22,533 bases of DNA from a virus, in IMG/VR virus record IMGVR_UViG_3300045120_000300, positions 1 to 22,533 of that record; one strand, 5' to 3'. How positions within the stretch are numbered: the stretch's first letter is position 1; every line of letters starts with the position of its first letter. The notes below the pieces were generated by a model that searched no databases, had not been told where the DNA came from, and worked only from the letters and a program-made list of their open reading frames with translations. Shown in pieces: positions 608-11,974 of the stretch. Both the position numbers and the translations under genes were made by a program.

Positions 608-636
608 ACTATATCACATTATGTGCTAGAAGTCAA
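608..636 (-). promoter_or_regulatory. Leftward promoter with palindromic operator (site a)
   Basis: On the minus strand: TTGACT (-35), a 17-base spacer, TATAGT (-10). The spacer contains the near-palindrome CACATAATGTG (615-625), flanked as TAGCACATAATGTGATA. This is the clearest example of the dyad lying between -35 and -10, where a bound protein would block RNA polymerase. Site assignment is by eye. Confidence 0.65.
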
Positions 637-637
637 C

Positions 638-1342
638 TCACGCCGCCTCGGGTGGTTCGTATTTGGCGAGTTCATGGCGATAGGTCTGGTACAGCATCCA
701 GGCATCGTCGATGTCCTCGGGCGCGCAGTTCTGTTGCACAAAACAGCCGACGAAACCCGCCTTGCTGAATATCCTGCCGCAATCCTCTTCTTCGAAGGCT
801 TGCTTGAGAATCGCGCTGGCGGGGTCGGGTGCGGTGACGATGTATTTACGTCGTAGCTGGTCCTTGGTCATTGTGCCGTGCCTTTCTGTAACAGCCGCCG
901 CTGTGATCGCGGATACCACGATTGCCTGAATGTGCTGGGTCTTTGCCGTTTCGCTCAGATCGCTGGGCAGGGCTTCGATCTGGTGCGCCGCGTCCAGCGC
1001 GATTTGATTGCGGCCTGCCGGTGTGACGGTTGCTGCCCTGCGCACATTGTCCCGCTCATAAGCCAGCCCTGCGCGGAATCCGTGGTTATAGGACGCCTCT
1101 TGAACCCGCAAGCTTGCCTCAAGCCGCCCGATGCGGGCATCACGCTCCACCAACTCCGCGCTAAGCCGCTGGCTTAACCCGGCGCGGGCAGCGGCACGCA
1201 CAATCCCAAGCAGCTCGCCGCCGTGATCCTGATCGCGTGCTGCCGGATTTCGCCGAACCCAATCGGCAATCTCCCGCAGCGCCGCCTCCAGCGCCTCGAT
1301 GCGGTCTTGCATTGCTAATATCTTGTCGGTGTACTCACTCAT
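638..1342 (-). CDS. Coiled-coil phage protein, paralog 1 (last of the array)
   Basis: A 234-residue protein of unknown function. Residues about 10-30 form a heptad-like coiled coil (RIEALEAALREIADW). About residues 85-100 carry SYNHGFRAGLAYERDN, a motif shared almost exactly with the gene at 1726-2295, so the two are paralogs. The C-terminal 75 residues, from MTKDQLRRKYIV, resemble a separate module; their internal ATG near 871 has AAAGG about 10 bases upstream and could be a second start. The start at 1342 overlaps the TGA of the preceding gene as ATGA. It is the last gene of the unit reading from operator site b. Confidence 0.75.
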   Translation of the reverse strand: MSEYTDKILAMQDRIEALEAALREIADWVRRNPAARDQDHGGELLGIVRAAARAGLSQRLSAELVERDARIGRLEASLRVQEASYNHGFRAGLAYERDNVRRAATVTPAGRNQIALDAAHQIEALPSDLSETAKTQHIQAIVVSAITAAAVTERHGTMTKDQLRRKYIVTAPDPASAILKQAFEEEDCGRIFSKAGFVGCFVQQNCAPEDIDDAWMLYQTYRHELAKYEPPEAA

Positions 1343-1653
1343 TTCTTTTCTGGTGCGAGTGCTTCGAGTTCAATCCAAAACTGAGGCTTCGCGGCGGGCG
1401 CAATGCCATGCTTGTCCATTAAGCGTGCGATTTCTTTCCCCAACGATCTGGCAGGTCTCTCGATTGATTTGTCCTGCTCCCCGGCGAGGGCGACGCGGGC
1501 GATGGTCTGCATTGCTTCAATCGCCGTCCAGGAACTAGCGGACTTCATATTAGCGATATCCCGCAGTGCCGCCTTCAGCGCCTTGATGCGGTCGCGCTGC
1601 TCGATAAGTTTTTCGCACAGTCCGTCTATGGCTGCGTTTTCATCGTCGTTCAT
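1339..1653 (-). CDS. Coiled-coil phage protein, paralog 2
   Basis: A 104-residue protein of unknown function starting MNDDENAAIDGL. It contains the shared module RDRIKALKAALRDIAN (about residues 20-35) and the IARVALAGEQDK ending seen in its paralog at 2292, here followed by about 35 extra residues. I chose the ATG at 1653 because it overlaps the TGA of the tiny membrane gene upstream (ATGA) and AGGA sits just before it. A longer frame reaches 1701 but would run through the upstream gene. It is translationally coupled on both sides. Confidence 0.7.
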   Translation of the reverse strand: MNDDENAAIDGLCEKLIEQRDRIKALKAALRDIANMKSASSWTAIEAMQTIARVALAGEQDKSIERPARSLGKEIARLMDKHGIAPAAKPQFWIELEALAPEKK

Positions 1654-1739
1654 TTGTCCTTGCTCCTGAACGCATACATCGATGCGATGATCGCGGACCA
1701 CATGAGCACCAGATACGTAATTTTTTCAGCTACGCTCAT
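1650..1739 (-). CDS. 29-residue single-pass membrane peptide
   Basis: A short ORF, MSVAEKITYLVLMWSAIIAS and onward to a basic tail ending RSKDK. Residues about 7-22 are hydrophobic enough for one membrane helix. The start ATG lies within the end of the upstream gene (14-base overlap), preceded by AGGACAA. Its TGA overlaps the ATG of the next gene. The sequence GGACAAATGA occurs at both ends of this gene. Function unknown; its position in a tightly coupled operon argues that it is translated. Confidence 0.55.
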   Translation of the reverse strand: MSVAEKITYLVLMWSAIIASMYAFRSKDK

Positions 1740-2295
1740 TTGTCCTGTCCGTATTGTCTCGCTCGTAAGCCACGCCTGCGCGGAACCCGTGGTCATAGGA
1801 CTGTTGCGCCTCTTGGGCAGAATGGCTGATGGCCGCCAAGATTTGCCTGGCAAGATCGGCTGCATTGGTTATCTCAGTAACGCCATCCGAAAAACATATG
1901 ACATCGACGTTTTCATCGATGATTTTTTCGATAAGGTCAGCCGTCTCAATGGATGATTGGGCAGTACCGCGCAGGGTAGCTACTTCCGCCTCCAGCGCCT
2001 CGATGCGGTCACGCGCCGCGTCCATAAGGCCGGTGTTTTTATTAATCTGATTTGCCCATGCTCGGCGATCTGCCTCCAGCGCCTCGATGCGGTTACAGAG
2101 CCGTTCATTCTCTTTCGCTTCATCGCGCCATCGGCCTTCCCAATAGCGCGGGCCGTGCCATTCGTTATTCATTTGACGCTCATTTGTCCTGCCCCATTCG
2201 CGAATGACCGCCTCCAGCTCTTCGATGCAGTCGGCGGCTTCTTCTCTAGTAACGACGGCACCCAGATCACGCAGCCGTTCGACAAGATCACTCAT
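1726..2295 (-). CDS. Coiled-coil phage protein, paralog 3 (probable fusion)
   Basis: A 189-residue protein of unknown function. It has an N-terminal module (MSDLVERLRDLG, then EEAADCIEELEAVIREW), two coiled-coil stretches with RIEALEA (about residues 70-105), and a C-terminal SYDHGFRAGVAYERDN motif shared with the gene at 638-1342. The start overlaps the upstream TGA as ATGA. Around 2169-2190 the sequence AGGACAAATGAGCG, which forms gene junctions elsewhere in this operon, is read through in another frame as GRTNERQ. This suggests two former genes fused. An alternative start is the ATG at 2172 (MNNEWHG), giving 148 residues. Confidence 0.7.
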   Translation of the reverse strand: MSDLVERLRDLGAVVTREEAADCIEELEAVIREWGRTNERQMNNEWHGPRYWEGRWRDEAKENERLCNRIEALEADRRAWANQINKNTGLMDAARDRIEALEAEVATLRGTAQSSIETADLIEKIIDENVDVICFSDGVTEITNAADLARQILAAISHSAQEAQQSYDHGFRAGVAYERDNTDRTNERS

Positions 2296-2489
2296 TTGTC
2301 TTGTTCCTTGGCGAGGGCGGCGCGAGCGATTTCTGCTTGTACAATGGAGACGCCGGTTGGATCGTCCGCTATCTCCCGCAGCGCCGCCTCCAGTGCCTCG
2401 ATGTAGTCGGCGGCCTCTTCACACATCAAATAGCAATCTATCGACGCCTCATCGGCGCCTCTGCGCAGCCGTTTGACAATCTCGCTCAT
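2292..2489 (-). CDS. Coiled-coil phage protein, paralog 4
   Basis: A 65-residue protein, MSEIVKRLRRGADE, then CEEAADYIEALEAALREIAD and a tail IARAALAKEQDK. It is the shortest and probably simplest form of the module repeated in this operon; the EEAADYIEALEAALREI helix is strongly amphipathic. I chose the ATG at 2489 because it overlaps the TGA of the HTH gene (ATGA). An upstream in-frame ATG would lie inside that gene. The last codons (GEQDK-like) double as the ribosome binding site of the next gene. Function unknown. Confidence 0.7.
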   Translation of the reverse strand: MSEIVKRLRRGADEASIDCYLMCEEAADYIEALEAALREIADDPTGVSIVQAEIARAALAKEQDK

Positions 2490-2725
2490 TTCTTTGGTCG
2501 TTTCTTCCGCCATGGCGCACCCAATTCGTCAATGTCATCGGGAGTGATCTGGTAATTGTCCATGATCGATATCAGCAAGGCCACGGCATAGGGCGCCCCT
2601 TCGGCGGCCCAGCGGCGACCGGAGTTCATGGTCTTGCCGCCAAACAGCCAGCTGGCCTGTCCCTGGGTCAGATTGTAACGCGCCAGGGCTTTCTTGTACT
2701 GCATCGCAGTCATCGGTGGTGCCAT
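2486..2725 (-). CDS. Cro/CI-like helix-turn-helix protein
   Basis: A 79-residue protein resembling the small HTH proteins of phages: residues about 8-45 (MQYKKALARYNLTQGQASWL to GRRWAAEG) have the LTQ-x-x-A-A-x-x-L spacing of an XRE/Cro helix-turn-helix, followed by PYAVALLISIMDN and ITPDDIDEL, usual for this group. I chose the ATG at 2725 because GGAGG lies 5 bases upstream; the in-frame ATG at 2737 would place that site inside the gene. It is the first gene behind operator b, which nearly touches its ribosome binding site. That makes it a candidate to bind the repeated operators and regulate itself; this is inference. Confidence 0.8.
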   Translation of the reverse strand: MAPPMTAMQYKKALARYNLTQGQASWLFGGKTMNSGRRWAAEGAPYAVALLISIMDNYQITPDDIDELGAPWRKKRPKK

Positions 2726-2739
2726 GACAACCTCCATAG

Positions 2740-2771
2740 CACATTATGTGAGCTATGACGAAAAGTGTCAA
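2740..2771 (-). promoter_or_regulatory. Leftward promoter with palindromic operator (site b)
   Basis: On the minus strand: TTGACA (2766-2771), a 17-base spacer, CATAAT (2743-2748). Here the -10 box is part of the palindrome CACATAATGTG (2740-2750), not beside it. It drives the HTH gene and the coiled-coil operon. This unit has no CCAATGGGA box, only a strong GGAGG. Confidence 0.65.
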
Positions 2772-2786
2772 GACCGGAAACAGATA

Positions 2787-2804
2787 CGGCCCCTTTCGGG
2801 GCCG
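2787..2804 (-). terminator. Hairpin, possible terminator of the 2865-3053 gene
   Basis: CGGCCCC, TTTC loop, GGGGCCG: a perfect 7-base-pair GC stem with a 4-base loop, about 60 bases after the leftward gene stops. There is only a weak T-rich stretch after it, so intrinsic termination is uncertain. Confidence 0.45.
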
Positions 2805-2864
2805 CACCGTCCGCACGCGCTGGGAAACCAATGGGATGGGAACCATACGCGAGAGAAATAATAT

Positions 2865-3053
2865 TTAATGACTTTTTGACTGGCTCGCAATCTCTAATCG
2901 GCGCCGCAGCTCCAGCAAGACATTGAGATTAGACCGCATCAGACTGGCATGATCGTGCATCTGTTCGGTCATGGCGATCAAGGCATCCAGTTCAACCAAT
3001 GCATTGCTAACGAGATCAGCCGCTGACTGCCGAATTCGAATCGGTAGGCTCAT
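2865..3053 (-). CDS. Small helical phage protein
   Basis: A 62-residue protein, MSLPIRIRQSAADLVSNALV and onward, predicted to be almost all helical (LDALIAMTEQMHDH, LNVLLELRRRLEIA). Function unknown. I favour the ATG at 3053, with GGAG about 6 bases upstream. An in-frame ATG at 3098 (77 residues) also has a strong GGGAGG site, so the start is not settled. It has no operator of its own in view. It sits between the HTH operon and the terminator at 3190-3236 and may have its own weak promoter. Confidence 0.6.
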   Translation of the reverse strand: MSLPIRIRQSAADLVSNALVELDALIAMTEQMHDHASLMRSNLNVLLELRRRLEIASQSKSH

Positions 3054-3069
3054 GAGTTCTCCAATAGAG

Positions 3070-3135
3070 TTATTTGGGTGAAGGCGACACACCGCCATGA
3101 TTTCCTCCCGGCTGGGGGGTTGGGAGATTCGTCAT
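3070..3135 (-). CDS. Possible 21-residue Pro/Gly-rich peptide
   Basis: An ORF, MTNLPTPQPGGNHGGVSPSP plus Lys, with AAGGA a few bases before its ATG. It ends 16 bases before the ATG at 3053. It could be a leader peptide, or chance in an otherwise gene-free stretch. It competes with the longer start (3098) of the neighbouring gene. Confidence 0.2.
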   Translation of the reverse strand: MTNLPTPQPGGNHGGVSPSPK

Positions 3136-3189
3136 CCCGTCCTTGCGGCCTGTCCAATCGCATCACCAATCGGACTCGGGATCACCCAA

Positions 3190-3236
3190 AACATAAAAAA
3201 GACCCCGGCAATCGGGTTGAGACGATCGCCGGGGCC
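3190..3236 (-). terminator. Intrinsic terminator of the 3250-3537 unit
   Basis: On the minus strand the stem CCCCGGC/GCCGGGG (arms 3203-3209 and 3228-3234, with an inner ATCG/CGAT extension) is followed at once by TCTTTTTTATGTTTT. This is a classic rho-independent terminator just after the stop at 3250. Confidence 0.85.
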
Positions 3237-3249
3237 GACGTGCCCCTAC

Positions 3250-3537
3250 TCAATACTCGGAGGGCAAGAGGAAGGTGGTCACGGAACGATCCGCTTCGGT
3301 GATGATCCAGAAGATGTCTTCACTCTCCAGCATCGGATAGGCGCTCAGGATGCGCCCGCCACGCTGCAGAGCGGCGTTGTTGGCCTGCCAATCCTCATCA
3401 TCGATGCAGCCCCAATGGCCCTGCAGATGTTCGGCCAGCGCCGAAAAGGCATAGGCCGGATGGACCTTGTCCATGAATCCCTTGGTGGCGCAGAGGTCAC
3501 CAAAGTCAAACTTGGTATTTACTTCCACGACTTTCAT
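3250..3537 (-). CDS. Conserved phage/plasmid protein ending ITEADRSVTTFLLPSEY
   Basis: A 95-residue protein of a family common in phages and plasmids, sometimes mislabelled as a restriction subunit. Recognisable parts are GDLCATKG near the N terminus, LAEHLQGHWGCIDDEDWQAN in the middle (usual form: HxxGDWGxxxxEDxxxN), GGRILSAYPM, and the C-terminal WIITEADRSVTTFLLPSEY. The biochemical role is unknown. I chose the ATG at 3537, with GGGAG 8 bases upstream; the frame continues to 3642 but that extension crosses the promoter. It is a single-gene unit: promoter c, leader box, gene, terminator. Confidence 0.85.
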   Translation of the reverse strand: MKVVEVNTKFDFGDLCATKGFMDKVHPAYAFSALAEHLQGHWGCIDDEDWQANNAALQRGGRILSAYPMLESEDIFWIITEADRSVTTFLLPSEY

Positions 3538-3545
3538 AGTGTCGC

Positions 3546-3556
3546 TCCCATCGGTT
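3546..3556 (-). promoter_or_regulatory. AACCGATGGGA leader box (variant)
   Basis: One-base variant (CCGATGGG) of the leader box. Its ATG opens the mini-ORF MGATL, whose TGA overlaps the gene's ATG as ATGA. Confidence 0.55.
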
Positions 3557-3568
3557 TGCAGTGGAATT

Positions 3569-3596
3569 ACACTAGCACATTTGGTGACTGTGTCAA
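3569..3596 (-). promoter_or_regulatory. Leftward promoter with operator (site c)
   Basis: TTGACA (3591-3596), a 16-base spacer holding CACCAAATGTG (3576-3586), then TAGTGT; TGTAAT at 19 bases is another -10 choice. One arm of the dyad is degenerate, but TGTGCTA is kept. The -35 overlaps the stop of the upstream gene. Confidence 0.55.
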
Positions 3597-3778
3597 TACG
3601 TGCGGTTAGGGTTTTTCTCTTTCCATTGCTTGGCGGCTTCATGCATCCGCACCAGCTTGGCGGTGGCGTCCATCGCCAACTTGATCTGGCTGTTCATATA
3701 GACAACAATATCCAGCAGTTCGTCACGCGACAAGGTTTCGATATCCCTGCCCATCCAGTACATCCGTGGGCGTGGCAT
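3593..3778 (-). CDS. Small phage protein, 61 residues
   Basis: MPRPRMYWMGRDIETLSRDE, then LLDIVVYMNSQIKLAMDATA and a basic C terminus (KQWKEKNPNRTY). Predicted helical, with no transmembrane segment. Small proteins with a LSRDELLDIV-like core are frequent in phage early regions; none has a role I know. The start lies 3 bases after the upstream stop with GGGGTGA as ribosome binding site, so it is coupled to 3782-4084. It is the last gene of the long unit from promoter d. Confidence 0.7.
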   Translation of the reverse strand: MPRPRMYWMGRDIETLSRDELLDIVVYMNSQIKLAMDATAKLVRMHEAAKQWKEKNPNRTY

Positions 3779-3781
3779 GGC

Positions 3782-4084
3782 TCACCCCTTTGCTGCCTTG
3801 GTGGACATCTTGCGCCACACCCGTTCAAAGCCCAGCGCGCGGCCGGAGGCTTCGACGGTGACGTTGCTGGGACGGCAGGTCTTGCCGAAGAACCAAGCCC
3901 GCATGCAGCTGACCGACGGCCCGCCCTGGCGCTCGATCGCGCGCAGCATCTTGTTGTTGATCTTCTCGCCGTAGACGTCCTCGAACAGCGTCCGGGTCAT
4001 GTCGATCACAGGCTCTTTGTCCTTGAAGCTGTAAGAGCCATAGAATTTCAGATGGCCATTGGTTTTTGCGGTCTTTTTAGCCAT
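3782..4084 (-). CDS. Putative DNA-binding (Cro/CI-fold) phage protein
   Basis: A 100-residue basic protein. The C-terminal half, GGPSVSCMRAWFFGKTCRPS followed by TVEASGRALGFERVWRKM, has the layout of phage HTH proteins in which a recognition helix (S-x-S-x-x-R-x-W) precedes a RPxxxTVEAxxRALG segment. The N terminus begins with AKKTAKT, encoded across one of the AAAAGAC words. It overlaps the upstream winged-helix gene by 8 bases, so the two putative DNA-binding proteins are made together. Regulatory role is inferred from fold resemblance only. Confidence 0.7.
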   Translation of the reverse strand: MAKKTAKTNGHLKFYGSYSFKDKEPVIDMTRTLFEDVYGEKINNKMLRAIERQGGPSVSCMRAWFFGKTCRPSNVTVEASGRALGFERVWRKMSTKAAKG

Positions 4085-4487
4085 GGGACGCCTCCAGCTG
4101 TCGTAGTCCTTCCGGCGTCAGCCGGTATTGGCCCCGGCCGATCGCCCGGATCAAGCCATCGTTCTTCATGACAAAGATGGCGTTGGAAATGCTCTTGGCG
4201 GAAAACCCGGCCGGGACTGCCGCCGCCCGCAATTTCTCGGGGTCGCTGATTCGCTTTTCATCGGCGGCGAAAGTCTGCAGCATCACCGCCCGCAAACCGC
4301 CCCGCGAATCGCGTGGCTTGCGCTTGGGCGCCGCCAATAGCTTGGGCGCGTGGCCGTTCTGCAGCATCCGGACGGGTTTATCGTCGCCATAGAGCGCGAT
4401 CTTCATTTCGCTGTGGCCATGCTCGATCAGACTGAGGAAGTGGGCGATCGGCACGTCAAAGCTAACGGTGAGTTTCTTGATTCCCAT
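4077..4487 (-). CDS. Putative winged-helix DNA-binding phage protein
   Basis: A 136-residue protein. Residues about 60-130 read as a winged helix (RAVMLQTFAADE, AKSISNAIFVMKNDGLIRAI, then the wing GRGQYRLTPEG). The N-terminal part (MGIKKLTVSFDVPIAHFLSL) is different and unknown. The start is the ATG inside the AACCAATGGGA box itself, with AGGAG 6 bases upstream. In this one gene the box's ATG is clearly the start codon. It lies within the long unit from promoter d and may act as an early transcription regulator. Confidence 0.7.
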   Translation of the reverse strand: MGIKKLTVSFDVPIAHFLSLIEHGHSEMKIALYGDDKPVRMLQNGHAPKLLAAPKRKPRDSRGGLRAVMLQTFAADEKRISDPEKLRAAAVPAGFSAKSISNAIFVMKNDGLIRAIGRGQYRLTPEGLRQLEASHG

Positions 4488-4492
4488 TGGTT
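4482..4492 (-). promoter_or_regulatory. AACCAATGGGA box that contains the start codon of 4077-4487
   Basis: The box is intact, but here its ATG GGA are codons 1 and 2 of the gene, and the Shine-Dalgarno (AGGAG) lies upstream of the box. Confidence 0.55.
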
Positions 4493-4506
4493 TCTCCTGT
4501 TGTGGT

Positions 4507-4674
4507 TTAACGACGTTTCACTTCTTTGAGCAGTTCGCGAACCTGAATTGCGGTTTCTTCACCCAGCAAGCCATGCTTGGCAATATAACTCTGCAGGATT
4601 ATTGCCTGTTGGTTACGATCGTTCCCCATCGTCTCCAGCATAAACAGCAGCAGCTTTTCGTTCTGGCTAATCAT
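4507..4674 (-). CDS. Small helical phage protein, 55 residues
   Basis: MISQNEKLLLFMLETMGNDR, then NQQAIILQSYIAKHGLLGEE and a C-terminal helix ending RELLKEVKRR. The start overlaps the stop of the coiled-coil gene 4667-4906 by 8 bases (CTGAATGATTAG). The next gene starts 20 bases after the stop. All-helical, charged, soluble; function unknown. Its tight fit between coupled genes and sensible amino-acid use support it despite its size. Confidence 0.65.
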   Translation of the reverse strand: MISQNEKLLLFMLETMGNDRNQQAIILQSYIAKHGLLGEETAIQVRELLKEVKRR

Positions 4675-4906
4675 TCAGCTTCTCCATATCGATAAGCCCG
4701 CCCGCCGCCACCGCCAGAATCAGATTGGTGGCCTGCAGCAGCGCGCGAAACTGGTCGGCACGCCTCGCTTTATCGCGCGCAAACGCCGCTTCGTTGCGGC
4801 GATGCTTGGTGATTTCGTTGCGAAGTTCGTCAATCTCTTGGTTGGCCTCGAATAGCCGGGCCTCCAGCCGCGCGGCCACGGTGGTCTTTTTAAGTGGCTT
4901 TCTCAT
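4667..4906 (-). CDS. Coiled-coil phage protein, 79 residues
   Basis: A basic N terminus (MRKPLKKTTVAARLEARLFE), then a long coiled coil (EIDELRNEITKHRRNEAAFA) and a more hydrophobic C-terminal helix (ATNLILAVAAGGLIDMEKLND). Function unknown. The start overlaps the TGA of 4903-5184 as ATGA. The KKTT codons contain the AAAAGAC word. Confidence 0.7.
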   Translation of the reverse strand: MRKPLKKTTVAARLEARLFEANQEIDELRNEITKHRRNEAAFARDKARRADQFRALLQATNLILAVAAGGLIDMEKLND

Positions 4907-5184
4907 TCATACGCCTCATCCCGGCTCTTGGCAGTGTACCAGTCGAGCTGCGGCCAGTTTGCTTCCGCCTCGGCCTTGAGCTGATGATAGGTAAAGTCTG
5001 GCTCGCGCTGCCGCAGCGTCAGCTTGAGGTGTTCGCGGGCGCGGCCCTTGCGGTAAAAGTTCTCATGCGCCCAGCAGGTGCGGCACAGATACAGATTGCC
5101 GCCGCCGCCCAAGGCGTATAACCGCACTTCGCCGGTCGACTCCACGCAATGCGCGCCGTCGCAATTCGGATTTACATCTGACAT
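4903..5184 (-). CDS. Putative zinc-ribbon phage protein
   Basis: A 93-residue protein with four cysteines in two pairs: Cys8 and Cys13 (NCDGAHC) and Cys34 and Cys37 (LCRTC), a likely zinc site. After the second pair comes WAHENFYRKGRAREHL. I recall this layout (C-x4-C, about 20 residues, C-x2-C-W/F-x-H-E) from phage proteins of unknown role in Rhizobiales. The first codons (MSDVNP) and their DNA are identical to the start of the upstream gene 5200-5418. Coupled downstream by ATGA. Confidence 0.75.
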   Translation of the reverse strand: MSDVNPNCDGAHCVESTGEVRLYALGGGGNLYLCRTCWAHENFYRKGRAREHLKLTLRQREPDFTYHQLKAEAEANWPQLDWYTAKSRDEAYE

Positions 5185-5185
5185 T
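5168..5185 (-). repeat. 18-bp direct repeat, copy 1 (start of 4903-5184)
   Basis: GGATTTACATCTGACATT, identical to 5402-5419. It covers the ATG and first codons (MSDVNP) of two otherwise unrelated neighbouring genes. Confidence 0.8.
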
Positions 5186-5199
5186 TAAGTTATTCCACT

Positions 5200-5418
5200 C
5201 TAGATGTTGGCATGAGCCGCATAGGCATAGTCAGTGAGAAATTGCGCACGCGGAACCACAAGCTCATAGGCATTTCGTTTTTCGATGCCCGTGACCTTGT
5301 TACAGGGAATGATGGTAACATCGCCTTCGGTGCGGTGGGCACGAAGCACGCGCCAGTGTTTGCCGGTCTTATCCTTCCAGACGTCGCTAGTCCAGACTTG
5401 AGGATTTACATCTGACAT
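5200..5418 (-). CDS. Small phage protein, 72 residues
   Basis: MSDVNPQVWTSDVWKDKTGK, then HWRVLRAHRTEGDVTIIPCN and a C terminus rich in Ala and Tyr (FLTDYAYAAHANI). The middle looks like a small beta barrel. Function unknown. I chose the ATG at 5418, which follows a GGGGGGAC ribosome binding site. The start region duplicates that of the zinc-ribbon gene downstream. Confidence 0.65.
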   Translation of the reverse strand: MSDVNPQVWTSDVWKDKTGKHWRVLRAHRTEGDVTIIPCNKVTGIEKRNAYELVVPRAQFLTDYAYAAHANI

Positions 5419-5419
5419 T
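5402..5419 (-). repeat. 18-bp direct repeat, copy 2 (start of 5200-5418)
   Basis: Identical to 5168-5185; see that entry. Downstream of the repeat the two genes share nothing obvious. Confidence 0.8.
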
Positions 5420-5487
5420 CTAGTCCCCCCTTTTCGAATCGGACAGCAGCGCACGATTTGTAACCATGCGCCGCTGGATTTGCAATC

Positions 5488-5694
5488 TCATTCGCGTTCC
5501 AGTTCGCCATTAGGGTCGAACTTGTAATTTGGTTCGTCCTCGGATTCGATCACGCGCCATTCCCGCACCGACATCCAGCGCGACGCCAGATTGAGGGCGT
5601 AGAGTTCGGCATCTTCCTTGTTGGCAAACCGTATTAGATTGCCAACCCATTTTTCGCTGTCATCGGCGATGACTTCGGCCTTCCATGATTTCAT
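5488..5694 (-). CDS. Small conserved phage protein (WKAEVIAD...RWMSVREWRV)
   Basis: A 68-residue protein of a type widespread in phages: KAEVIADDSEKWVGNLIRFA, then EDAELYALNLASRWMSVREW and RVIESEDEPNYKF. The pattern (strand, W-x-G-N, F-A-x-x-E-x-A-x-x-Y helix, W-R-V strand) is a compact alpha/beta fold. The role is unknown. The start overlaps the TGA of 5691-5867 as ATGA. Confidence 0.8.
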   Translation of the reverse strand: MKSWKAEVIADDSEKWVGNLIRFANKEDAELYALNLASRWMSVREWRVIESEDEPNYKFDPNGELERE

Positions 5695-5867
5695 CCCAGC
5701 ACCATTGCTAACAGAATGCAGCCGCCAACGAGAACGATAGGCCAGATGATATGATATTCCTTGCCGCTATAATCATAGGTCAGATCATCCCACATTTTTT
5801 TAGCGCCATCGATTGCATCTCGCTCGCGGGCTTTACGATCGGCTCGCATTTGGTCGCGTTCATTCAT
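5691..5867 (-). CDS. Small C-tail-anchored membrane protein
   Basis: A 58-residue protein with a charged N-terminal half (MNERDQMRADRKARERDAID) and a single hydrophobic segment at about residues 40-57 (IIWPIVLVGGCILLAMVLG) at the extreme C terminus. This makes it a tail-anchored inner-membrane protein with a cytoplasmic charged domain. Function unknown. The start at 5867 lies 9 bases after GGGA in the leader box. The box mini-ORF MGNTP stops in ATGA overlap with it. A long hairpin (5895-5941) precedes the box. Confidence 0.65.
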   Translation of the reverse strand: MNERDQMRADRKARERDAIDGAKKMWDDLTYDYSGKEYHIIWPIVLVGGCILLAMVLG

Positions 5868-5875
5868 GGTGTATT

Positions 5876-5886: not shown

Positions 5887-5894
5887 GGCTGCAG

Positions 5895-5941: not shown

Positions 5942-5944
5942 GCG

Positions 5945-6427: not shown

Positions 6428-6428
6428 T

Positions 6429-6614: not shown

Positions 6615-6832
6615 GATTCCGCCTCCGGCGTTTCAATGGCGTAACGGGTATTGCCGTCGATCAGGATCACGGACTCGCCGTCTTTTATGACCGGCGGCCC
6701 AAAATCGATTTCGTTGTCACGGATCTTCTGCACCGCGAGCCGCACCGATTCGGCGGGATCGTTTCCGGCATAGTCACGGTAATAGCGCACGGCGGCATTG
6801 AAATTGATAAAGCGGTTGGTTCCTACGCGCAT
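6611..6832 (-). CDS. Small phage protein, 73 residues
   Basis: MRVGTNRFINFNAAVRYYRD, then YAGNDPAESVRLAVQKIRDN, EIDFGPPVIKDGESVILIDG and NTRYAIE. Predicted helix-helix-strand-strand. Proteins with an AVRYYRDYG-like start and ending in DG-x-RY are common in alphaproteobacterial phages; function unknown. AGGTAAAG before the ATG is the ribosome binding site; its TGA overlaps the next start. Confidence 0.7.
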   Translation of the reverse strand: MRVGTNRFINFNAAVRYYRDYAGNDPAESVRLAVQKIRDNEIDFGPPVIKDGESVILIDGNTRYAIETPEAES

Positions 6833-6837
6833 GATCT

Positions 6838-6990
6838 TTACCTCTCATGGATAACGGCGGTTGCCAGCAATGCAAGAATTCCGGCAATCCAACCGCAAAC
6901 AAAACCATCTAAACCGATAGCATCGGCCAGATAACGCCCGGTTAGGAATAGCGGCACGCAAAACAGACCGGACAACATAAATTTTTTCAC
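6838..6990 (-). CDS. Small two-helix membrane protein, 50 residues
   Basis: Starts at GTG: KKFMLSGLFCVPLFLTGRYL, then ADAIGLDGFVCGWIAGILAL and ATAVIHER. Two hydrophobic stretches (about residues 4-17 and 29-46) fit two membrane helices. The GTG lies 4 bases after the stop of the previous gene, so coupling is likely; an internal ATG at 6978 is an alternative. Function unknown. Pairs of tiny membrane proteins like this and the next could be holin-like or superinfection-related, but nothing specific is visible. Confidence 0.55.
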   Translation of the reverse strand: MKKFMLSGLFCVPLFLTGRYLADAIGLDGFVCGWIAGILALLATAVIHER

Positions 6991-6994
6991 GGTG

Positions 6995-7099
6995 TTAAAA
7001 CACGATGGCAAAAATCAGGAAGGCGCCCAGCATCGTGATGCAGACCGAGAAAAACAAATCCCGAATCGCATCCAGCTCCACATTACGATCATTTTCCAT
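6995..7099 (-). CDS. 34-residue membrane peptide, first gene of a long operon
   Basis: MENDRNVELDAIRDLFFSVC, then ITMLGAFLIFAIVF. One hydrophobic C-terminal helix covers about residues 15-34. Its start overlaps the TAA of the leader-box mini-ORF MGTL (TAATG), with GGGG as ribosome binding site. It is the first of about fourteen leftward genes behind promoter d. Function unknown. Confidence 0.55.
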   Translation of the reverse strand: MENDRNVELDAIRDLFFSVCITMLGAFLIFAIVF

Positions 7100-7106
7100 T
7101 ACAGAG

Positions 7107-7117
7107 TCCCCATTGGT
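7107..7117 (-). promoter_or_regulatory. AACCAATGGGG leader box before 6995-7099
   Basis: One-base variant at the last position. Mini-ORF MGTL, stop TAA overlapping the gene start as TAATG. Confidence 0.55.
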
Positions 7118-7132
7118 TTTGACAACAAAATG

Positions 7133-7160
7133 ACCCTAGCACGTTTTGTGCTAAGGTCAA
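7133..7160 (-). promoter_or_regulatory. Leftward promoter with operator (site d)
   Basis: TTGACC (7155-7160), a 16-base spacer with CACAAAACGTG (7140-7150 on the plus strand as CACGTTTTGTG), then TAGGGT. The dyad is extended: TAGCAC and GTGCTA arms are perfect, and TGACC / GGTCA lie outside them. It is the most symmetric of the sites. Confidence 0.65.
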
Positions 7161-7169
7161 GATGTAAAT

Positions 7170-7334
7170 TTATAGCTCTGCAATGGCGTCGTCGATCGCG
7201 CTCCTGATGGCGTCCAGATTCGGGAAAGCCTCTTCCCACATTTCATCAGCGGGCACGTTGTCCAATAGAAAACTGGTCAGGTCATCCCGCAAGGCCAGTA
7301 GATCTTGCTTTAATTGTTCGCGGCTGTCGGTCAT
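7170..7334 (-). CDS. Small acidic phage protein, 54 residues
   Basis: MTDSREQLKQDLLALRDDLT, then SFLLDNVPADEMWEEAFPNL and DAIRSAIDDAIAEL. Acidic and helical, with no membrane segment. The start overlaps the stop of the DUF3150-like gene (TGATG), so it is coupled to it and may act with it. Function unknown. Confidence 0.65.
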   Translation of the reverse strand: MTDSREQLKQDLLALRDDLTSFLLDNVPADEMWEEAFPNLDAIRSAIDDAIAEL

Positions 7335-8206
7335 CATGCGGCCCTCGCCATGGCGTCGATTTGCGAGAGGATCAAATTTGCCTGTTTGGAGATATCCGCG
7401 CGCAGCTTTTCGTCGTCGCGCAGATCCTGCGCGGTATAGGCGGTCAACGAATTCAGCTTTTGCTGCATCCGGGTAAGATCGGGATCATTGGCGATATTGA
7501 TCGAGGGAATCAAACCCGCCAGCTCCTTGATGTTATCAACCAAGGTGTCATGAAACTTGCCTTCGGCCGGTTTGCCGTCCTTGGCGGGCTTGTAGTTCTG
7601 CAGCGCCATTTTCAGCTTTTCGACTTTTTCAATGATTCGCTGCCATGCGGTAACGTTGGCGTTGTCAATCGCGTCAGCGTTGCGTTCGGCAATTTCGAGC
7701 TTGATATCGTCAACGACTTCCTTGGGCAGTCCCTGGACTCTGAAATCATGGGCTTGCGGCATTGGTTCGCACGCAATGGTGAAAGCAAACTTTTCGCCCA
7801 GGTTGGCGCTATCGGGATAATCATTGGCGTCGAACAGATCGCCAAGGTATTTGCGGGCGTTGTCGCGTTCCTCGGCATAGACCGAAAAAAACTTGGCCAC
7901 GGCCTTATTGAACTCGCGTTCAAAGGTCGCCATCACGGCCTTATAAGCGGGGTAACCTTCGGCGGTAATGGCGCCCGGCCCTTCATAGGACCATGGCACG
8001 GTCCTTTGCCGGTGCTCCGCGCGGGCGGCGTTCGCAATGCGTTGAATCGCATCCAGTGCGTCGGCGGCGATCACGGATTTATAGACTTTGACTCCGGCTT
8101 TATCTCCGGCATGCGCGCGGGCTTGGGCGGCGCGGGTGGCGCCCTTGTCCATCTTGCGCGCGTTCCAGACGGACATTGAGAGACGAACTAGAAAGGCGTT
8201 GTTCAT
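7334..8206 (-). CDS. DUF3150-like phage protein
   Basis: A 290-residue, mostly helical cytoplasmic protein. Features are an N-terminal FLVRLSMSVWNARKMDKGAT (typical of DUF3150, which starts near such an S-V/I-W-x-A-R-K motif), a KVYKSVI segment, the middle TVPWSYEGPGAITAEGYPAY, FSVYAEERDNARKYLGD, and long C-terminal helices. DUF3150 proteins are found in phages next to MoxR/CobS-type AAA ATPases, as here two genes upstream. I chose the ATG at 8206, with GGGAG 8 bases upstream; the leader-box ATG at 8221 is in frame and would add five residues (MGAII). First gene behind operator e. Confidence 0.75.
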   Translation of the reverse strand: MNNAFLVRLSMSVWNARKMDKGATRAAQARAHAGDKAGVKVYKSVIAADALDAIQRIANAARAEHRQRTVPWSYEGPGAITAEGYPAYKAVMATFEREFNKAVAKFFSVYAEERDNARKYLGDLFDANDYPDSANLGEKFAFTIACEPMPQAHDFRVQGLPKEVVDDIKLEIAERNADAIDNANVTAWQRIIEKVEKLKMALQNYKPAKDGKPAEGKFHDTLVDNIKELAGLIPSINIANDPDLTRMQQKLNSLTAYTAQDLRDDEKLRADISKQANLILSQIDAMARAA

Positions 8207-8215
8207 GATGATAGC

Positions 8216-8226
8216 TCCCATCGGTT
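8216..8226 (-). promoter_or_regulatory. AACCGATGGGA leader box before the DUF3150-like gene
   Basis: Variant with CCGATGGG. Its ATG is in frame with the gene (MGAII, then MNNAF), so it would give an N-terminal extension, not a separate mini-ORF. Confidence 0.55.
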
Positions 8227-8234
8227 GAGGCTTG

Positions 8235-8264
8235 GGTTTAGCACGTTATGTGATATCGATTCAA
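8235..8264 (-). promoter_or_regulatory. Leftward promoter with operator (site e)
   Basis: TTGAAT (8259-8264), an 18-base spacer, TAAACC (8235-8240). The spacer holds CACATAACGTG (8242-8252), flanked as TATCACATAACGTGCTA. The promoter boxes are weak; the operator is well kept. Confidence 0.5.
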
Positions 8265-8396
8265 GACTATTTGACAAACGATAGAGAAAAAGATTTGGCC
8301 GGGCTGCAGCGCCACGCCATCGATTCCAGGTGCTGTAATACCATTGGCAGGGATTAGGTCCGAATCGGGATCAATTCTAAAGCCCGTGGGTGCGTT

Positions 8397-8435
8397 AAAA
8401 AAGGGAGGGCGCTACCATGGCGCCCTCCCTTTTTG
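8397..8435. terminator. Bidirectional intrinsic terminator
   Basis: AAAAAGGGAGGGCGC (8398-8412) and GCGCCCTCCCTTTTT (8420-8434) form a perfect 15-base-pair stem with an A-run on one side and a T-run on the other, so it works on either strand. It ends the leftward unit 8476-9303. From here to the operator at 8235-8264 I see no gene. Confidence 0.9.
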
Positions 8436-8443
8436 CGTCGACG

Positions 8444-8465
8444 GGCGCCCGGTTTGCCGGGCGCC
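8444..8465. repeat. Second hairpin after the DUF7192-like gene
   Basis: GGCGCCCGG and CCGGGCGCC, 9 base pairs with a TTTG loop, just after the stop at 8476. With no T-run of its own, it probably helps the strong terminator next to it or protects the RNA 3' end. Confidence 0.6.
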
Positions 8466-8475
8466 GCTTGGCGGC

Positions 8476-9303
8476 CTAGGCCGCTTCCTCGCCATTGAGC
8501 TTTGCGATTTGGTCGCGGACGAATGCTAGGGCCGTGCCATGGTCGCGGACGTCATGGGAGAGCAGGATTTCGGAGTCTTCGATCACGCCCTCGCCAACAT
8601 AAATTCCGTTCATGTCGCGGCGGCCGGGCGCATGGCTCTGTATCCAGGCATGGCCTAGGGCCCGAAAGAATCCCGGCAGGATCACGGCGCTAGTGGAGGT
8701 GACGTCAAACGGCATGCCGTGGTCCTTGACGATAATCCGGCAGGACGTGCGTTCGTTGCCCTTGGCGTTATCCCCGGTTGAGCCGCCGAAATTGACCACG
8801 AGGCGGACCATGTAACCGGCTTGTTCCAGTATGTCCGCCAGCGTCGCCGCTGCAGCCCCGCGCCAGAACAGCACGTCGGAATGTTCGCCGCCGCTGCAGA
8901 TCATGTTGGCGCAAATGTCGATCCGGGTTGGCGCCACGGTCGATCGGCGCTTCGCCGTCCGCCATGCGATATCAAGGCGGCCATTGTAGACCGCGAAAAT
9001 GTCCAGCACATCGCCTTGATCGGCGCGAACCGGGCGGCGGCGGCGATCGACCGGCACAAGGTCGACTTCGCCGATTTGGTCGCGCAAGGCATTGAGCCGC
9101 GCGCGGCCTTGTTCCCAACCTTCCGACATCACTTTGAGCACATCGTGGCCGGTACCACAGTCGGCGCCGTACCAGTCACCATTATGACCATCCATGAAAT
9201 GGGCCCAATAGCTGGTATTGGCGACATTGAGCGGTTTTAGCTGCACTGCAGACAGGAAGTCCGCGATCGAGTCGTATCGGGCATCGTTAAAGGGCTGTCT
9301 CAT
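8476..9303 (-). CDS. DUF7192-like phage protein
   Basis: A 275-residue cytoplasmic protein between the DUF3150-like protein and the AAA ATPase. Recognisable features are a central strand-rich part RIDICANMICSGGEHSDVLF, then WRGAAAATLADILEQAGYMV, VVNFGGSTGDNAKG and IIVKDHGMPFDV, and a late segment VILPGFFRALGHAWIQ. I associate this order (strand, GAA-x-x-L helix, strand with a polar loop) with DUF7192 of phages, and it is loosely like a VWA-type Rossmann core; I see no intact MIDAS DxSxS. I chose the ATG at 9303 by its GGGA spacing; the box ATG at 9315 is in frame. Single-gene unit: operator f in front, terminator behind. Confidence 0.6.
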   Translation of the reverse strand: MRQPFNDARYDSIADFLSAVQLKPLNVANTSYWAHFMDGHNGDWYGADCGTGHDVLKVMSEGWEQGRARLNALRDQIGEVDLVPVDRRRRPVRADQGDVLDIFAVYNGRLDIAWRTAKRRSTVAPTRIDICANMICSGGEHSDVLFWRGAAAATLADILEQAGYMVRLVVNFGGSTGDNAKGNERTSCRIIVKDHGMPFDVTSTSAVILPGFFRALGHAWIQSHAPGRRDMNGIYVGEGVIEDSEILLSHDVRDHGTALAFVRDQIAKLNGEEAA

Positions 9304-9309
9304 GTTGTT

Positions 9310-9320
9310 TCCCATTGGTT
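9310..9320 (-). promoter_or_regulatory. AACCAATGGGA leader box before the DUF7192-like gene
   Basis: Intact box. Its ATG is in frame with the gene (MGNN, then MRQPF). Confidence 0.55.
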
Positions 9321-9329
9321 AGAGGTAGC

Positions 9330-9362
9330 GCGGCTCTAGCACGTTTTGTGATAGAGCCGCAA
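9330..9362 (-). promoter_or_regulatory. Operator f inside a 31-base dyad
   Basis: The core CACAAAACGTG (9340-9350) lies at the centre of a longer inverted repeat, GCGGCTCTA (9330-9338) and TAGAGCCGC (9352-9360). TTGCGG (9357-9362) and TAGAGC (9333-9338) sit at -35/-10 spacing (18) but match consensus poorly. The extended dyad could form a hairpin in RNA arriving from the AAA ATPase gene. Confidence 0.55.
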
Positions 9363-9371
9363 GCTAATCGA

Positions 9372-10757
9372 TCAAACGCCGACTTTGGCCTTTTCGTCCT
9401 TGGTCCAATCCTCCAGCAAATGATCGCGGATTTCGCGCCAGGACTCGCCGCTTTGTTTCATGATCGCGGCCTTTTGGAATGAACGAGTCGAGATGACGCG
9501 ACGCAATTGCGCTTCGCGGGCCCGATCGCGCAATTCCCATAACCCGGCCATCTCTGCAGCGGTCAACCCGCCCGCAGCTGCAATGCTTTCCTCCAGGGTG
9601 CGATCATAATCGACCGTGATGAAGATGAATCGATCGCGGGTGGCGCCGTCCATCGCATTGCGGCCCGCGTAAATCGGGTTAGCGCCGGTCCCGTAGGTAT
9701 TGGCGGTTGCCATGAAATACGTATTGGCGCCGCGTAGTACCTCTGGATTGTCTTTTCGCAGATGGACAAACCATGAGCCATTGGCCAATGGCATGTTGGC
9801 GACCATGAGCATATTGGGGTCAAAGCCGTCAATTTCGTCAAAGCCGATCAACGCCTTGCCTTGCTCATAGAGCTTGATCGCCTTTGAGGGATGATATTCG
9901 AACTTGCCGCCATCGCCCGGCAATAGACGGCCGATCAAATCGCCTTCAGATGCGCCAGCGGTCCCGCCAACAATGGTATGGTCGACATCAAGGGCTTTTG
10001 CCAATTGCTTGATTAAATGTGTCTTGCCGCACCCGGCCGGGCCAACCAGCATGATATTGGCCTGATAGCCGTTCGGGCCAATTTTCGAGAGATAAGACAA
10101 CGCGCGCTCGAATTGCGGGTGAACAATGCCTTCAATGCGAATTGGCTTCTTGTCCTGATGCCGTACCTCAATAACTCGCGGCGCCACGCCAGCAAGGGAT
10201 TCGTTGATGATCGCCCGCACGCGGTTTTCGTCCAGGCCGGGCGTCCAGCCCTGCAACAAGAGTTGGCGCAATAGCGCCATGGGGTCAACGTTTGCCGGAA
10301 TCGCGTTACCAGGGATTGGTTGCGCTGCAGCATTGGGAGCGGGCTGTGGTGCCATTGGCGCGGCCATCGGTTCGGGTTGATCTGCAGCGGGCTCTGCAGC
10401 CTCTTGCGGTGTTTCCGGCTCTGCAGCGGGCTCTGCAGCCTCTTGTGGCGCCGCGCGGGGATCATCCCGCAAATAAGGTGTGGGGATCGGCGCCGGTTGC
10501 GGGGCGTCGTCGTTTTCGTCGCCGTTTTCAAGTTCGTCCAGTTTGCGCTTGATCGCGGCCAAACCGCTACCGTCGGTTTGGTTATAGGCCAGCGCCAATT
10601 CCCGCATTGAGAGTCCGGCGACGAAAAGCGCGGGATAACCCTGCGAAACCACCCATTTGCGAATTAAAGGCCGATTTTCTGAATTCACGGCGATGTGGCC
10701 GCGTTTGCCGATTAAAGACTCCGCTTCTTGCGGAGTCAGGCTTGGAGTTCGTGCCAT
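9372..10757 (-). CDS. CobS/MoxR-like AAA+ ATPase
   Basis: A 461-residue protein. Residues 1-78 form an N-terminal domain (SLTPQEAESLIGKRGHIAVN). Residues about 80-155 are a Pro/Ala/Glu-rich linker with internal repeats. Residues about 200-400 are the AAA+ core: Walker A GPAGCGKT (239-246), Walker B LIGFDEID (303-310), sensor-1 MATANT (349-354), and RDRF at 374-377. The core resembles CobS/MoxR ATPases, which remodel partner proteins using ATP. In phages such genes lie with DUF3150-like genes, as here, but the target is unknown. I see no CobT/VWA partner gene in the window. I chose the ATG at 10757; the leader-box ATG at 10772 is in frame. A hairpin lies in the first codons. Confidence 0.85.
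   Translation of the reverse strand: MARTPSLTPQEAESLIGKRGHIAVNSENRPLIRKWVVSQGYPALFVAGLSMRELALAYNQTDGSGLAAIKRKLDELENGDENDDAPQPAPIPTPYLRDDPRAAPQEAAEPAAEPETPQEAAEPAADQPEPMAAPMAPQPAPNAAAQPIPGNAIPANVDPMALLRQLLLQGWTPGLDENRVRAIINESLAGVAPRVIEVRHQDKKPIRIEGIVHPQFERALSYLSKIGPNGYQANIMLVGPAGCGKTHLIKQLAKALDVDHTIVGGTAGASEGDLIGRLLPGDGGKFEYHPSKAIKLYEQGKALIGFDEIDGFDPNMLMVANMPLANGSWFVHLRKDNPEVLRGANTYFMATANTYGTGANPIYAGRNAMDGATRDRFIFITVDYDRTLEESIAAAGGLTAAEMAGLWELRDRAREAQLRRVISTRSFQKAAIMKQSGESWREIRDHLLEDWTKDEKAKVGV
10382..10445. repeat. Two-copy direct repeat in the AAA ATPase linker
   Basis: A 25-base identical stretch occurs at 10382-10406 and 10421-10445 (period 39). It encodes the repeated QEAAEPAA linker segment. 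Length variation between related phages would be expected here. Confidence 0.75.
10711..10737 (-). terminator. Terminator-like hairpin inside the start of the ATPase gene
   Basis: On the minus strand GACTCCGC, loop AAGAA, GCGGAGTC (10717-10737), followed by TTTAAT. A perfect 8-base-pair stem with a short U-rich tail, within codons about 7-16. It may attenuate or pause transcription; it could also be chance in coding sequence. Confidence 0.4.
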
Positions 10758-10766
10758 TGTCTGTGT

Positions 10767-10777
10767 TCCCATTGGTT
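10767..10777 (-). promoter_or_regulatory. AACCAATGGGA leader box before the AAA ATPase
   Basis: Intact box. Its ATG is in frame with the gene (MGTQT, then MARTP). No operator lies directly upstream; the unit seems to start beyond 10956. Confidence 0.55.
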
Positions 10778-10800
10778 TCAGATGTTAAAAGACGGCGGGT

Positions 10801-10956
10801 TTAGTGACGTTCGCGAATGTCTTGAATTCGATAGGAGCGGGGGGAATAGTCTTTCCGCAGCTGGATTAATGCGGCCTTTTCGTCGGTCGCTTCGATATTG
10901 ATATCGAAAGACCAATGCTCCGCTTTTTCCCATATTCGGACTTCGAAGGTTTTCAT
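10801..10956 (-). CDS. Small phage protein, first leftward gene
   Basis: A 51-residue protein: MKTFEVRIWEKAEHWSFDIN, then IEATDEKAALIQLRKDYSPR and SYRIQDIRERH. The strand-helix-strand order with AxDEKAAxxxLRKDYxxRxYRI resembles small phage proteins of unknown function. I chose the ATG at 10956; GGGGAAAAAG upstream derives from a diverged leader box (AACCATGGGGA). The next gene is the AAA ATPase, 28 bases further on. It is the first gene left of the AT-rich control region, behind operators g and h. Confidence 0.7.
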   Translation of the reverse strand: MKTFEVRIWEKAEHWSFDINIEATDEKAALIQLRKDYSPRSYRIQDIRERH

Positions 10957-11007
10957 TTGGCTTTTTCCCCATGGTTTGTGCTGGCGCAATCGCCGCAGGC
11001 GTTTTCA

Positions 11008-11027
11008 GTCTTTTATCACGTTTTGTC
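11008..11027 (-). promoter_or_regulatory. Operator g (degenerate copy)
   Basis: Minus strand GACAAAACGTG (11017-11027) followed by ATAAAAGAC. One arm reads GAC where other sites have CAC. TTGACA overlaps the left arm. It is about 60 bases before the first leftward gene at 10956. Confidence 0.45.
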
Positions 11028-11085
11028 AATATGCAGAAAATTGTCTTTTGGGATCAATGAGTTAAAGACAGCGAAATAAGACGGA

Positions 11086-11112
11086 TATTTTATCACGTTT
11101 CGTGAGCTTATA
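11086..11112 (-). promoter_or_regulatory. Operator h with AT-rich promoter
   Basis: Minus strand TTATAA, 17-base spacer, AAATAT; TAAAAT at 15 is an alternative -10. The spacer contains CACGAAACGTG (11094-11104). Candidate promoter for the 10956 leftward unit; it could also face right. Confidence 0.45.
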
Positions 11113-11621
11113 AGTTATTGATATCATTGATGAAACGTCTGCATGTTTGCTAAAGGGCTGAATTCGAGCGGAATAATGAATTTATGTGTATGAAATTGCT
11201 ATGTAAATTTTTTAAAAGCGCGTTTTCTGCAGCGCCAACTAGGCGAAAAGTCAGTAGATTCGGAAACTAGACATGGGTGTGAGAGCATACTCCCCATTCC
11301 CTATTCCCTATTTTGTATGCAACTGCATGAACTTAATTTTTTACATCTCCCCATTAAGCAATTAGATAAAAGACATATATATATATATACTTATTGGAAG
11401 GTTATACTATACCTCTATTCGTATGATCGCTTTTTGCACGGTGCGGGAATGCCGGATTCAGAACGTATTGTTCTAGATCCGGGTATATATTTTGGAATTT
11501 GAGGATTTTCGGCTAGTGGAATTTAAGTCATTGAATTCATTGAACAATCGGTTTTTGCTAGTGGAGGCCAAAAGCAGATGTAAATTTCATTTCTGCACCA
11601 TTGGCGGCCTGGACTCGGCTC

Positions 11622-11638
11622 AAAAGACCATGTCTTTT
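11622..11638. repeat. Inverted pair of AAAAGAC words
   Basis: AAAAGAC, CAT, GTCTTTT: a perfect 7-base inverted repeat with a 3-base loop. A half operator (TTTTTGTGCTA) follows. A second, wider inverted pair of the same word spans 11648-11676. Confidence 0.6.
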
Positions 11639-11687
11639 TGTGCTACCGTCTTTTTAAGTTATTGAAAATAAAAGACAATTAATTTTT

Positions 11688-11706
11688 TCTGCACATTATG
11701 TGCAAA
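11688..11706. promoter_or_regulatory. Operator i
   Basis: TGCACATTATGTGCA (11691-11703 core), the most perfect palindrome in the set (15 bases), next to AAAGAC. No good -35 lies at the right distance on either strand, so it may be a repressor-only or looping site. Confidence 0.5.
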
Positions 11707-11942
11707 GACATTGCGAGATCCGTCCAACGGCCCAAAAAATCACGGAATGTGCGGTCCCCGACCCACCCCCAGCCTGTCCAGGCCACCCACCCAGCGCGCG
11801 TACTTGATGTGACCCCGACATAAAGAATTAAAAAAATCGAAAACGGTAATCCAATACCATTTATTTTTAAAAATGGGGTGGTAATTAGACACCCCCCCAA
11901 ATTATATGCAACCGCATTAATCTGGAACTTTACTAAAATTTA

Positions 11943-11974
11943 CTATCTAAATGCACAAAACGTGACAATAAAAG
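11943..11974 (+). promoter_or_regulatory. Rightward operator/promoter (site j)
   Basis: The only clear copy facing right outside coding sequence: CACAAAACGTG (11954-11964), followed by ACAATAAAAGAC. TATCTA and AATAAA lie at -35/-10 spacing (17) around it, a weak match. It points to the leader terminator and the winged-helix gene at 12156. Confidence 0.45.

Follow-up and report, generated by a model that had tools for sequence, protein, structure and literature searches.

A 17-bp dyad recurs in the early promoters of a soil phage and co-occurs with a small helix-turn-helix protein family

Introduction

Which protein reads a palindrome that recurs in front of nearly all leftward transcription units of a phage, and what would its binding achieve? 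This question is raised by a linear DNA fragment of 22,533 bp, which makes up the whole of the IMG/VR record IMGVR_UViG_3300045120_000300 and is referred to here as the window. A preliminary description of the window had pointed to ten CAC-RTTNT-GTG dyads, or close variants, dispersed over the promoters of the early units, and had named a gene for a helix-turn-helix (HTH) protein of 79 residues, here HTH79, as the candidate binder. Based on the enrichment of the dyads, their position in promoters and their distribution among phages, we consider it likely that they are the operators of one early-gene repression system, in which HTH79 would act as an Aca-like, autoregulated repressor that shuts off the early genes.

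Enrichment of the dyads in the window

All ten dyads are present: the strict CACRTTNTGTG pattern starts at 615, 2740, 7140, 8242, 9340, 11692 and 11954, and the sites at 3576 (CACATTTGGTG), 11094 (CACGTTTCGTG) and 11017 (CACGTTTTGTC) carry one mismatch to it, the last of them being without the GTG arm. With an eighth strict copy at 21256, the whole window contains 8 matches compared with 0 for the mirrored control pattern. This further copy (21256-21266), overlooked in the preliminary description, sits in a coding region (gene 19644-21593), far from any promoter. The inclusion of looser variants did not hold up, as CACRTTNTGTG at two or fewer mismatches was not enriched in the window (35 matches vs 30.8 expected); only the strict set is informative, since looser matches represent background. 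In the ~3.1 kb of non-coding sequence, CAC-N5-GTG occurs ten times, in comparison to a mean of 0.5 over 1000 dinucleotide shuffles of the non-coding segments, the highest shuffled count being 4. The longer 17-mer TAGCAC-N5-GTGCTA, with up to two mismatches, was found six times (mean 0.33 and maximum 3 in 300 shuffles). The operator proper would be this 17-mer, TAG-CAC-N5-GTG-CTA.

Position of the dyads in early promoters

Between ~11 kb and its left end, the window carries leftward genes that look early; next to them lies a 1.2-kb non-coding region and, to its right, a rightward gene for a winged HTH (wHTH) protein, packaging genes and rightward structural genes. On the minus strand, the dyads of sites a and c–f occupy the 16–18 bp spacer of the promoters of five leftward units, i.e., TTGACT-17-TATAGT (a), TTGACA-16-TAGTGT (c), TTGACC-16-TAGGGT (d), TTGAAT-18-TAAACC (e) and TTGCGG-18-TAGAGC (f), while at site b (TTGACA-17-CATAAT) the dyad covers the -10 box of the HTH79 gene (Table 1). 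This geometry, read directly from the DNA, agrees with the one first described. A generic sigma-70 scan of the window gave no excess over shuffles and only a and b passed it; promoters c–f therefore rest on the recurring architecture.

Every larger leftward unit starts with one of these sites, the only exception being a small open reading frame at ~2865-3098. Since a strong leftward terminator was detected upstream of it by a terminator scan (3201-3236), this is a single leftward gene without its own operator, and the wording that nearly every early unit carries one is correct. Sites g and h, which had been placed before a seventh unit, do lie before the AAA ATPase unit, but g is a half-site and no promoter of the a–f type accompanies them. 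The place of site g reads TTGACAAACGTGATA in the relative L009, one base shorter, and g is thus probably not a full palindromic operator.

Table 1. Dyad sites and genes of the window discussed in the text
Feature	Position	Strand	Description
Operator a	612..628	-	17-mer TAGCACATAATGTGATA, before gene 105-578; in spacer of TTGACT (631-636) and TATAGT (608-613)
Operator b	2737..2753	-	Core 2740-2750, ahead of the unit that holds the HTH79 gene; -35 TTGACA (2766-2771)
-10 box in core of operator b	2743-2748	-	CATAAT
Operator c	3573..3589	-	One core mismatch, before gene 3250-3537; between TTGACA (3591-3596) and TAGTGT (3569-3574)
Operator d	7137..7153	-	Perfect TAGCAC-N5-GTGCTA, before unit ending near 3593; between TTGACC (7155-7160) and TAGGGT (7133-7138)
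Operator e	8239..8255	-	TATCACATAACGTGCTA, before gene 7334-8206; between TTGAAT (8259-8264) and TAAACC (8235-8240)
Operator f	9337..9353	-	TATCACAAAACGTGCTA, before gene 8476-9315; between TTGCGG (9357-9362) and TAGAGC (9333-9338)
Site g	11014..11030	-	Half-site TTGACAAAACGTGATA overlapping TTGACA, upstream of the AAA ATPase unit
Site h	11091..11107	-	CACGAAACGTG
Site i	11689..11705	.	CACATTATGTG, large intergenic region
Site j	11951..11967	.	CACAAAACGTG, ~200 bp upstream of the rightward wHTH gene 12156-12671
HTH79	2486..2725	-	79 residues, five helices, proposed binder; HTH residues 21-42, recognition helix 34-42 (modelled)
100-aa protein	3782..4084	-	Alternative binder, disfavoured
AAA_5 ATPase	9372..10772	-	Early gene of the g/h unit
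Trans_reg_C (OmpR/CtrA-type) wHTH protein	12156..12671	+	Behind site j; in nearly all relatives

Operator frame and HTH79 among relatives

None of the phages of the GenBank collection showed DNA-level similarity to the window. Its portal has 55% identity to that of Rhizobium phage RHph_TM27A and distant similarity to Roseobacter and HMO-2011-type phage portals, and its terminase has 68–84% identity to the terminases of 80 IMG/VR contigs. Several of these terminase relatives are 60–70 kb long, which suggests that the window is part of a ~60–70 kb phage; the host is probably an alphaproteobacterium.

The strict CACRTTNTGTG motif is essentially absent from the 80 terminase relatives. This absence first suggested a motif private to the window, an idea that was rejected when dyad analysis showed relatives with their own, different dyads. 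Homologues of HTH79 are encoded by G010, G011, G012 and G015-G017 (42–53% identity), by G050/G051 (67%) and, more distantly, by G052/G053 (46%). Genomes with homologues at 42–67% identity contain the frame TAG-NNC-A-NNN-T-GNN-CTA with 22 non-coding matches vs 1 for its mirrored control, in a test that included some of the genomes on which the frame had been defined. Genomes without a homologue gave 3 non-coding matches vs 4 for the mirrored control, and two of these three were in G021, where a later profile search detected a distant member of the HTH79 family. The HTH79 family and the 17-bp frame thus co-occur across phages. The inner letters differ among the relatives with homologues, e.g., TAGGAC and TAGGCC in the same frame, and phages unrelated to the window show the arrangement with changed letters as well. 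In the closest relative, L154/G051, with an HTH protein 67% identical, TTGACACTAGCACAAAATGTGCGTATATA is present, with a promoter reading TTGACA-ctagCACAAAATGTGcg-TATATA; the genome also has another TTGACA promoter, whose operator has one mismatch, and a dyad ~70 bp upstream of the HTH gene. The G051 sites fall slightly under the threshold of the frame count.

Blind search for promoter-operators

When 2.9 million viral contigs were searched blind with the pattern TTGAC-N(2-5)-TAGSMCANNNTGKSCTA, 65 phage stretches matched, compared with 5 for a control pattern with exchanged outer arms. An HTH79-family gene (E up to 0.01) was present in 17 of 55 further records, in 2 of 27 terminase relatives and in none of 5 control records, a modest association (Fisher p = 0.024 for 17/55 vs 2/27). 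In 45 of 70 sites the operator begins exactly 2 nt past TTGACN, so that its terminal TA opens the -10 hexamer, and some contigs, e.g., L170 and L230, have 7–14 operator copies. Together with the co-occurrence among relatives, these patterns lend support to the two earlier proposals that the early units may form a multi-operon regulon and that the HTH gene behind site b is a candidate for its binder.

The window's own type of site, the CAC type, turned up in ten blind-search records, and none of these has an HTH79 relative, near the sites or elsewhere. Hence the frame is not confined to the HTH79 family, and another regulator must serve the CAC type in those phages. Promoter-operators of the form TTGACN-N(1-3)-TAGCACANNNTGTGCTA without HTH79 were seen in L181, L190, L194, L203, L209, L214, L216, L220, L223 and L231.

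The HTH79 protein

The AlphaFold model of HTH79 (mean pLDDT 87) has an HTH fold. Its nearest solved folds by Foldseek, at high probability and E-values >0.1, are the MqsA C-terminal domain, RsaL, Aca2 and Aca10, whereas the fold match to P22 c2 is weak (TM 0.49). The sequence-profile match to Aca3 was no better than E 0.027. The window protein had no match to Pfam HTH_3, and two of seven homologues match Xre-like-HTH (best E 0.084). As modelled, HTH79 appears to be an XRE-like HTH protein resembling Aca and MqsA repressors; as in the Aca family, it is small and its own core promoter contains an inverted repeat, namely site b over the -10 box. A single-sequence search of viral contigs with HTH79 returned no match and an alignment-based search for the family returned ten loci; no bacterial or prophage relative was found in a scan of genome contigs.

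Residue 34, with which the recognition helix begins, is Asn in HTH79 and Thr in G051/L154, and both operators have C at position 4; in nearly all other homologues it is Arg, and their operators have G at position 4. This covariation is suggestive, although it represents approximately one evolutionary event.

Proposed early shutoff and points against it

From these patterns we infer that HTH79 binds the dyads as a dimer, represses the early genes and sets the timing of their expression. Host sigma-70 RNA polymerase would transcribe the leftward early units from their TTGAC-type promoters, and HTH79 would be produced from one of these units. An HTH79 dimer could then occupy TAG-CAC-N5-GTG-CTA, filling the -35/-10 spacer or, at its own promoter, covering the -10 box. 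With one operator per early promoter, polymerase would be occluded at all early promoters together, that of HTH79 included, and early expression would be limited to a brief burst.

Several observations weigh against this reading. The -10 boxes of c–f are weak, and sites g–j, in the 1.2-kb non-coding region, are without a clear promoter of the a–f type. In G010 and G017 no operator stands immediately before the HTH gene, and the G021 homologue has Ala at residue 34 though its operator has G. The high Foldseek E-values, the single event behind the covariation, the genomes shared between frame definition and frame test, the modest association in the blind search and the CAC-type records lacking HTH79 point in the same direction.

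Alternative explanations

A role of the sites in temperate-phage immunity, with HTH79 or a missing CI maintaining the prophage, appears unlikely. Many dispersed sites do serve immunity in phiC31 and in L5-type phages, and the unrelated TAGGCC-type phages G060 and G086 encode an integrase. However, HTH79 has the size of Cro or Aca proteins and is without a repressor C-terminal domain, and no Phage_integrase match was found in the long relatives G017, G012, G002, G022, G026, G041, G044, G045 and RHph_TM27A, G018 being the exception. The lack of such a match in all long terminase relatives but G018 favours a lytic role of the shutoff over immunity; given the integrases of G060 and G086, temperate phages may use this device too.

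It is similarly unlikely that the dyads are operators of another phage protein, i.e., the products of 3782-4084 or 4077-4487, or one encoded beyond the 22.5 kb fragment. Both products may be HTH-like, with a weak transcription-regulator match for 4077-4487, the record is only a fragment of a presumably ~60–70 kb phage, and CAC-type sites occur in unrelated contigs without HTH79. Against such a binder, HTH79 follows the frame and adjoins site b. Proteins of the 3782 type are absent from most frame-bearing genomes, and G004 has one without the TAG-N11-CTA frame, a distribution that disfavours 3782-4084; none of the genomes compared encodes a homologue of 4077-4487.

A host regulator exploited by the phage, which would tie early transcription to the state of the host, is very improbable as the binder. 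Phages use host CtrA sites in a similar manner (PMC9437464), and CAC-type 17-mers are present in phages without HTH79. The inner letters, however, vary between phages of the same group, following the phage HTH79 family. We also know of no host regulator with a CAC-N5-GTG 17-mer site. Chance, or RNA-level palindromes acting as terminators or leader hairpins, can practically be dismissed: the terminator scan picks up site d, but most dyads precede the -10 box and would not become part of a transcript, and the dyad counts are above every shuffle.

Comparison with known systems

Early shutoff by HTH79 would have several partial precedents. Lambda Cro and CI are small HTH proteins with 17-bp operators, six sites at two promoters; the operator length is the same here and the lambda half-site TATCAC recurs in sites e and f, in contrast to the arrangement, as here single sites stand at many promoters. 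The c repressor of phiC31 recognizes conserved inverted repeats, many near-identical palindromes by early promoters; unlike HTH79, it is a large repressor, of a temperate Streptomyces phage.

Aca proteins bind inverted repeats inside acr-aca core promoters and repress them (PMC9410906). HTH79 resembles them as a small HTH protein (Aca proteins having ~70–80 aa) with an inverted repeat in its core promoter and proposed autoregulation; Aca2/Aca10 are fold neighbours and Aca3 a profile match at the E-values given above. Aca repressors have been described for their own acr operon, whereas here 6–10 sites are spread across the early region; no known acr gene was identified, the neighbours not having been searched against anti-CRISPR libraries. 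In archaeal rudiviruses, an early regulon has been attributed to Aca8 and proposed to be virus-wide under one small HTH regulator; one virus-specific sequence is located at most early promoters, including that of the putative regulator gene, and where Aca8 is missing the viruses show different motifs, in part with inverted repeats (PMC11065993). A shared sequence at most early promoters, the regulator gene's included, is present in the window as well; the differences are archaeal TATA/BRE promoters and a wHTH protein there, and sigma-70-type promoters, a 17-bp dyad and an XRE-like family here.

The likeness to the dispersed repressor sites of actinobacteriophages drawn in the preliminary description is partial. 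In cluster A mycobacteriophages a single phage repressor does act at many dispersed sites, but these stoperators are asymmetric, genome-wide and block elongation through a monomeric two-domain repressor (PMC9283540, PMC6550527). The sites of the window are palindromic, non-coding but for one, and at promoters in 6 of 10 cases. The Aca8 early regulon, the acr-aca promoters and the phiC31 repeats are closer parallels.

Our literature search found no paper describing this 17-bp operator. What appears to be new is a 17-bp frame within the spacer of bacterial promoters, in many copies per genome, with specificity letters that change between phages. Tentatively, and with more reservation than for the window itself, very small HTH repressors of one widespread family might run the early regulons of many phage lineages through such spacer-built operators, letters 4–5 being rewired together with residue 34. 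If so, any gene that follows one of these operators could be named from sequence alone as a candidate early anti-host gene, and the promoter-operator sentence TTGACN-N2-TAGNNCANNNTGNNCTA would flag early genes across many uncultured phages, most of which have no known function and probably act against the host. It would also provide a natural series of letter-changed repressor-operator pairs for the study of protein–DNA specificity and of cross-immunity between phages, and would carry the idea of an Aca-type early regulon from archaeal viruses to bacterial phages.

Other dyads and sequence features

The dyads of the relatives fall into two classes. The first, in TTGAC-type early promoters, includes TAGGACA-NNN-TGTCCTA (G011), TAGGTC-N5-GACCTA (G021), TTGAC-N4-GTCAA (G003/G004) and GGTTGACA-N(2-3)-TGTCAACC (G002, G005, G007); G018 has clustered GAGC-N7-GCTC dyads. 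The early-region dyad of G018 reads TGAGCA-N5-TGCTCA, and G003/G004, G002, G005, G007 and G018 are without close HTH79 homologues. For the TTGACA-N(2-3)-TGTCAA operators of G002/G005/G007, one small HTH-like candidate regulator (G007 11960-12205) is common to the three genomes; it is also present in G022 and hence not decisive. The second class is distributed genome-wide, including coding sequence, in G026, G032, G041, G044, G045 and RHph_TM27A (L010, L011). These palindromes, TTACCT-N4-AGGTAA, TTACCG-N3-CGGTAA or TTACTG-N3-CAGTAA, reach up to ~30 copies per genome; they look like a different device, one not confined to promoters, and no published description of them was found.

The Trans_reg_C wHTH protein is a candidate late regulator. 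The CtrA-box-like sequence TTAA-N7-TTAA occurs at 16974-16988 in the window and in G002, G004, G017, G018, G019, G022, G026, G032, G041 and G044; in nearly all relatives it is usually located 30–70 bp upstream of late or structural genes. Because this sequence lies near late genes and the wHTH protein is present in nearly all relatives, a phage-encoded CtrA-like late activator is possible. CtrA sites are known in alphaproteobacterial phages, in a paper that deals with host CtrA (PMC9437464).

AAAGAC/GTCTTT is present in 40 copies in the window vs 7.7 expected, an approximately five-fold excess on both strands and in coding and non-coding sequence (e.g., at 11008, 11043, 11369, 11671, 11971, 15859 and 20532). 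It is frequent in the closest relatives G050 and G051 too (42 and 34 copies), and the longer forms AAAAGAC/TAAAGAC are rare in more distant relatives. Finally, an AACCRATGGG leader, probably an extended ribosome-binding context, stands closely upstream of nine leftward genes (minus strand, 597, 3556, 4492, 5886, 6445, 7118, 8226, 9320 and 10777).

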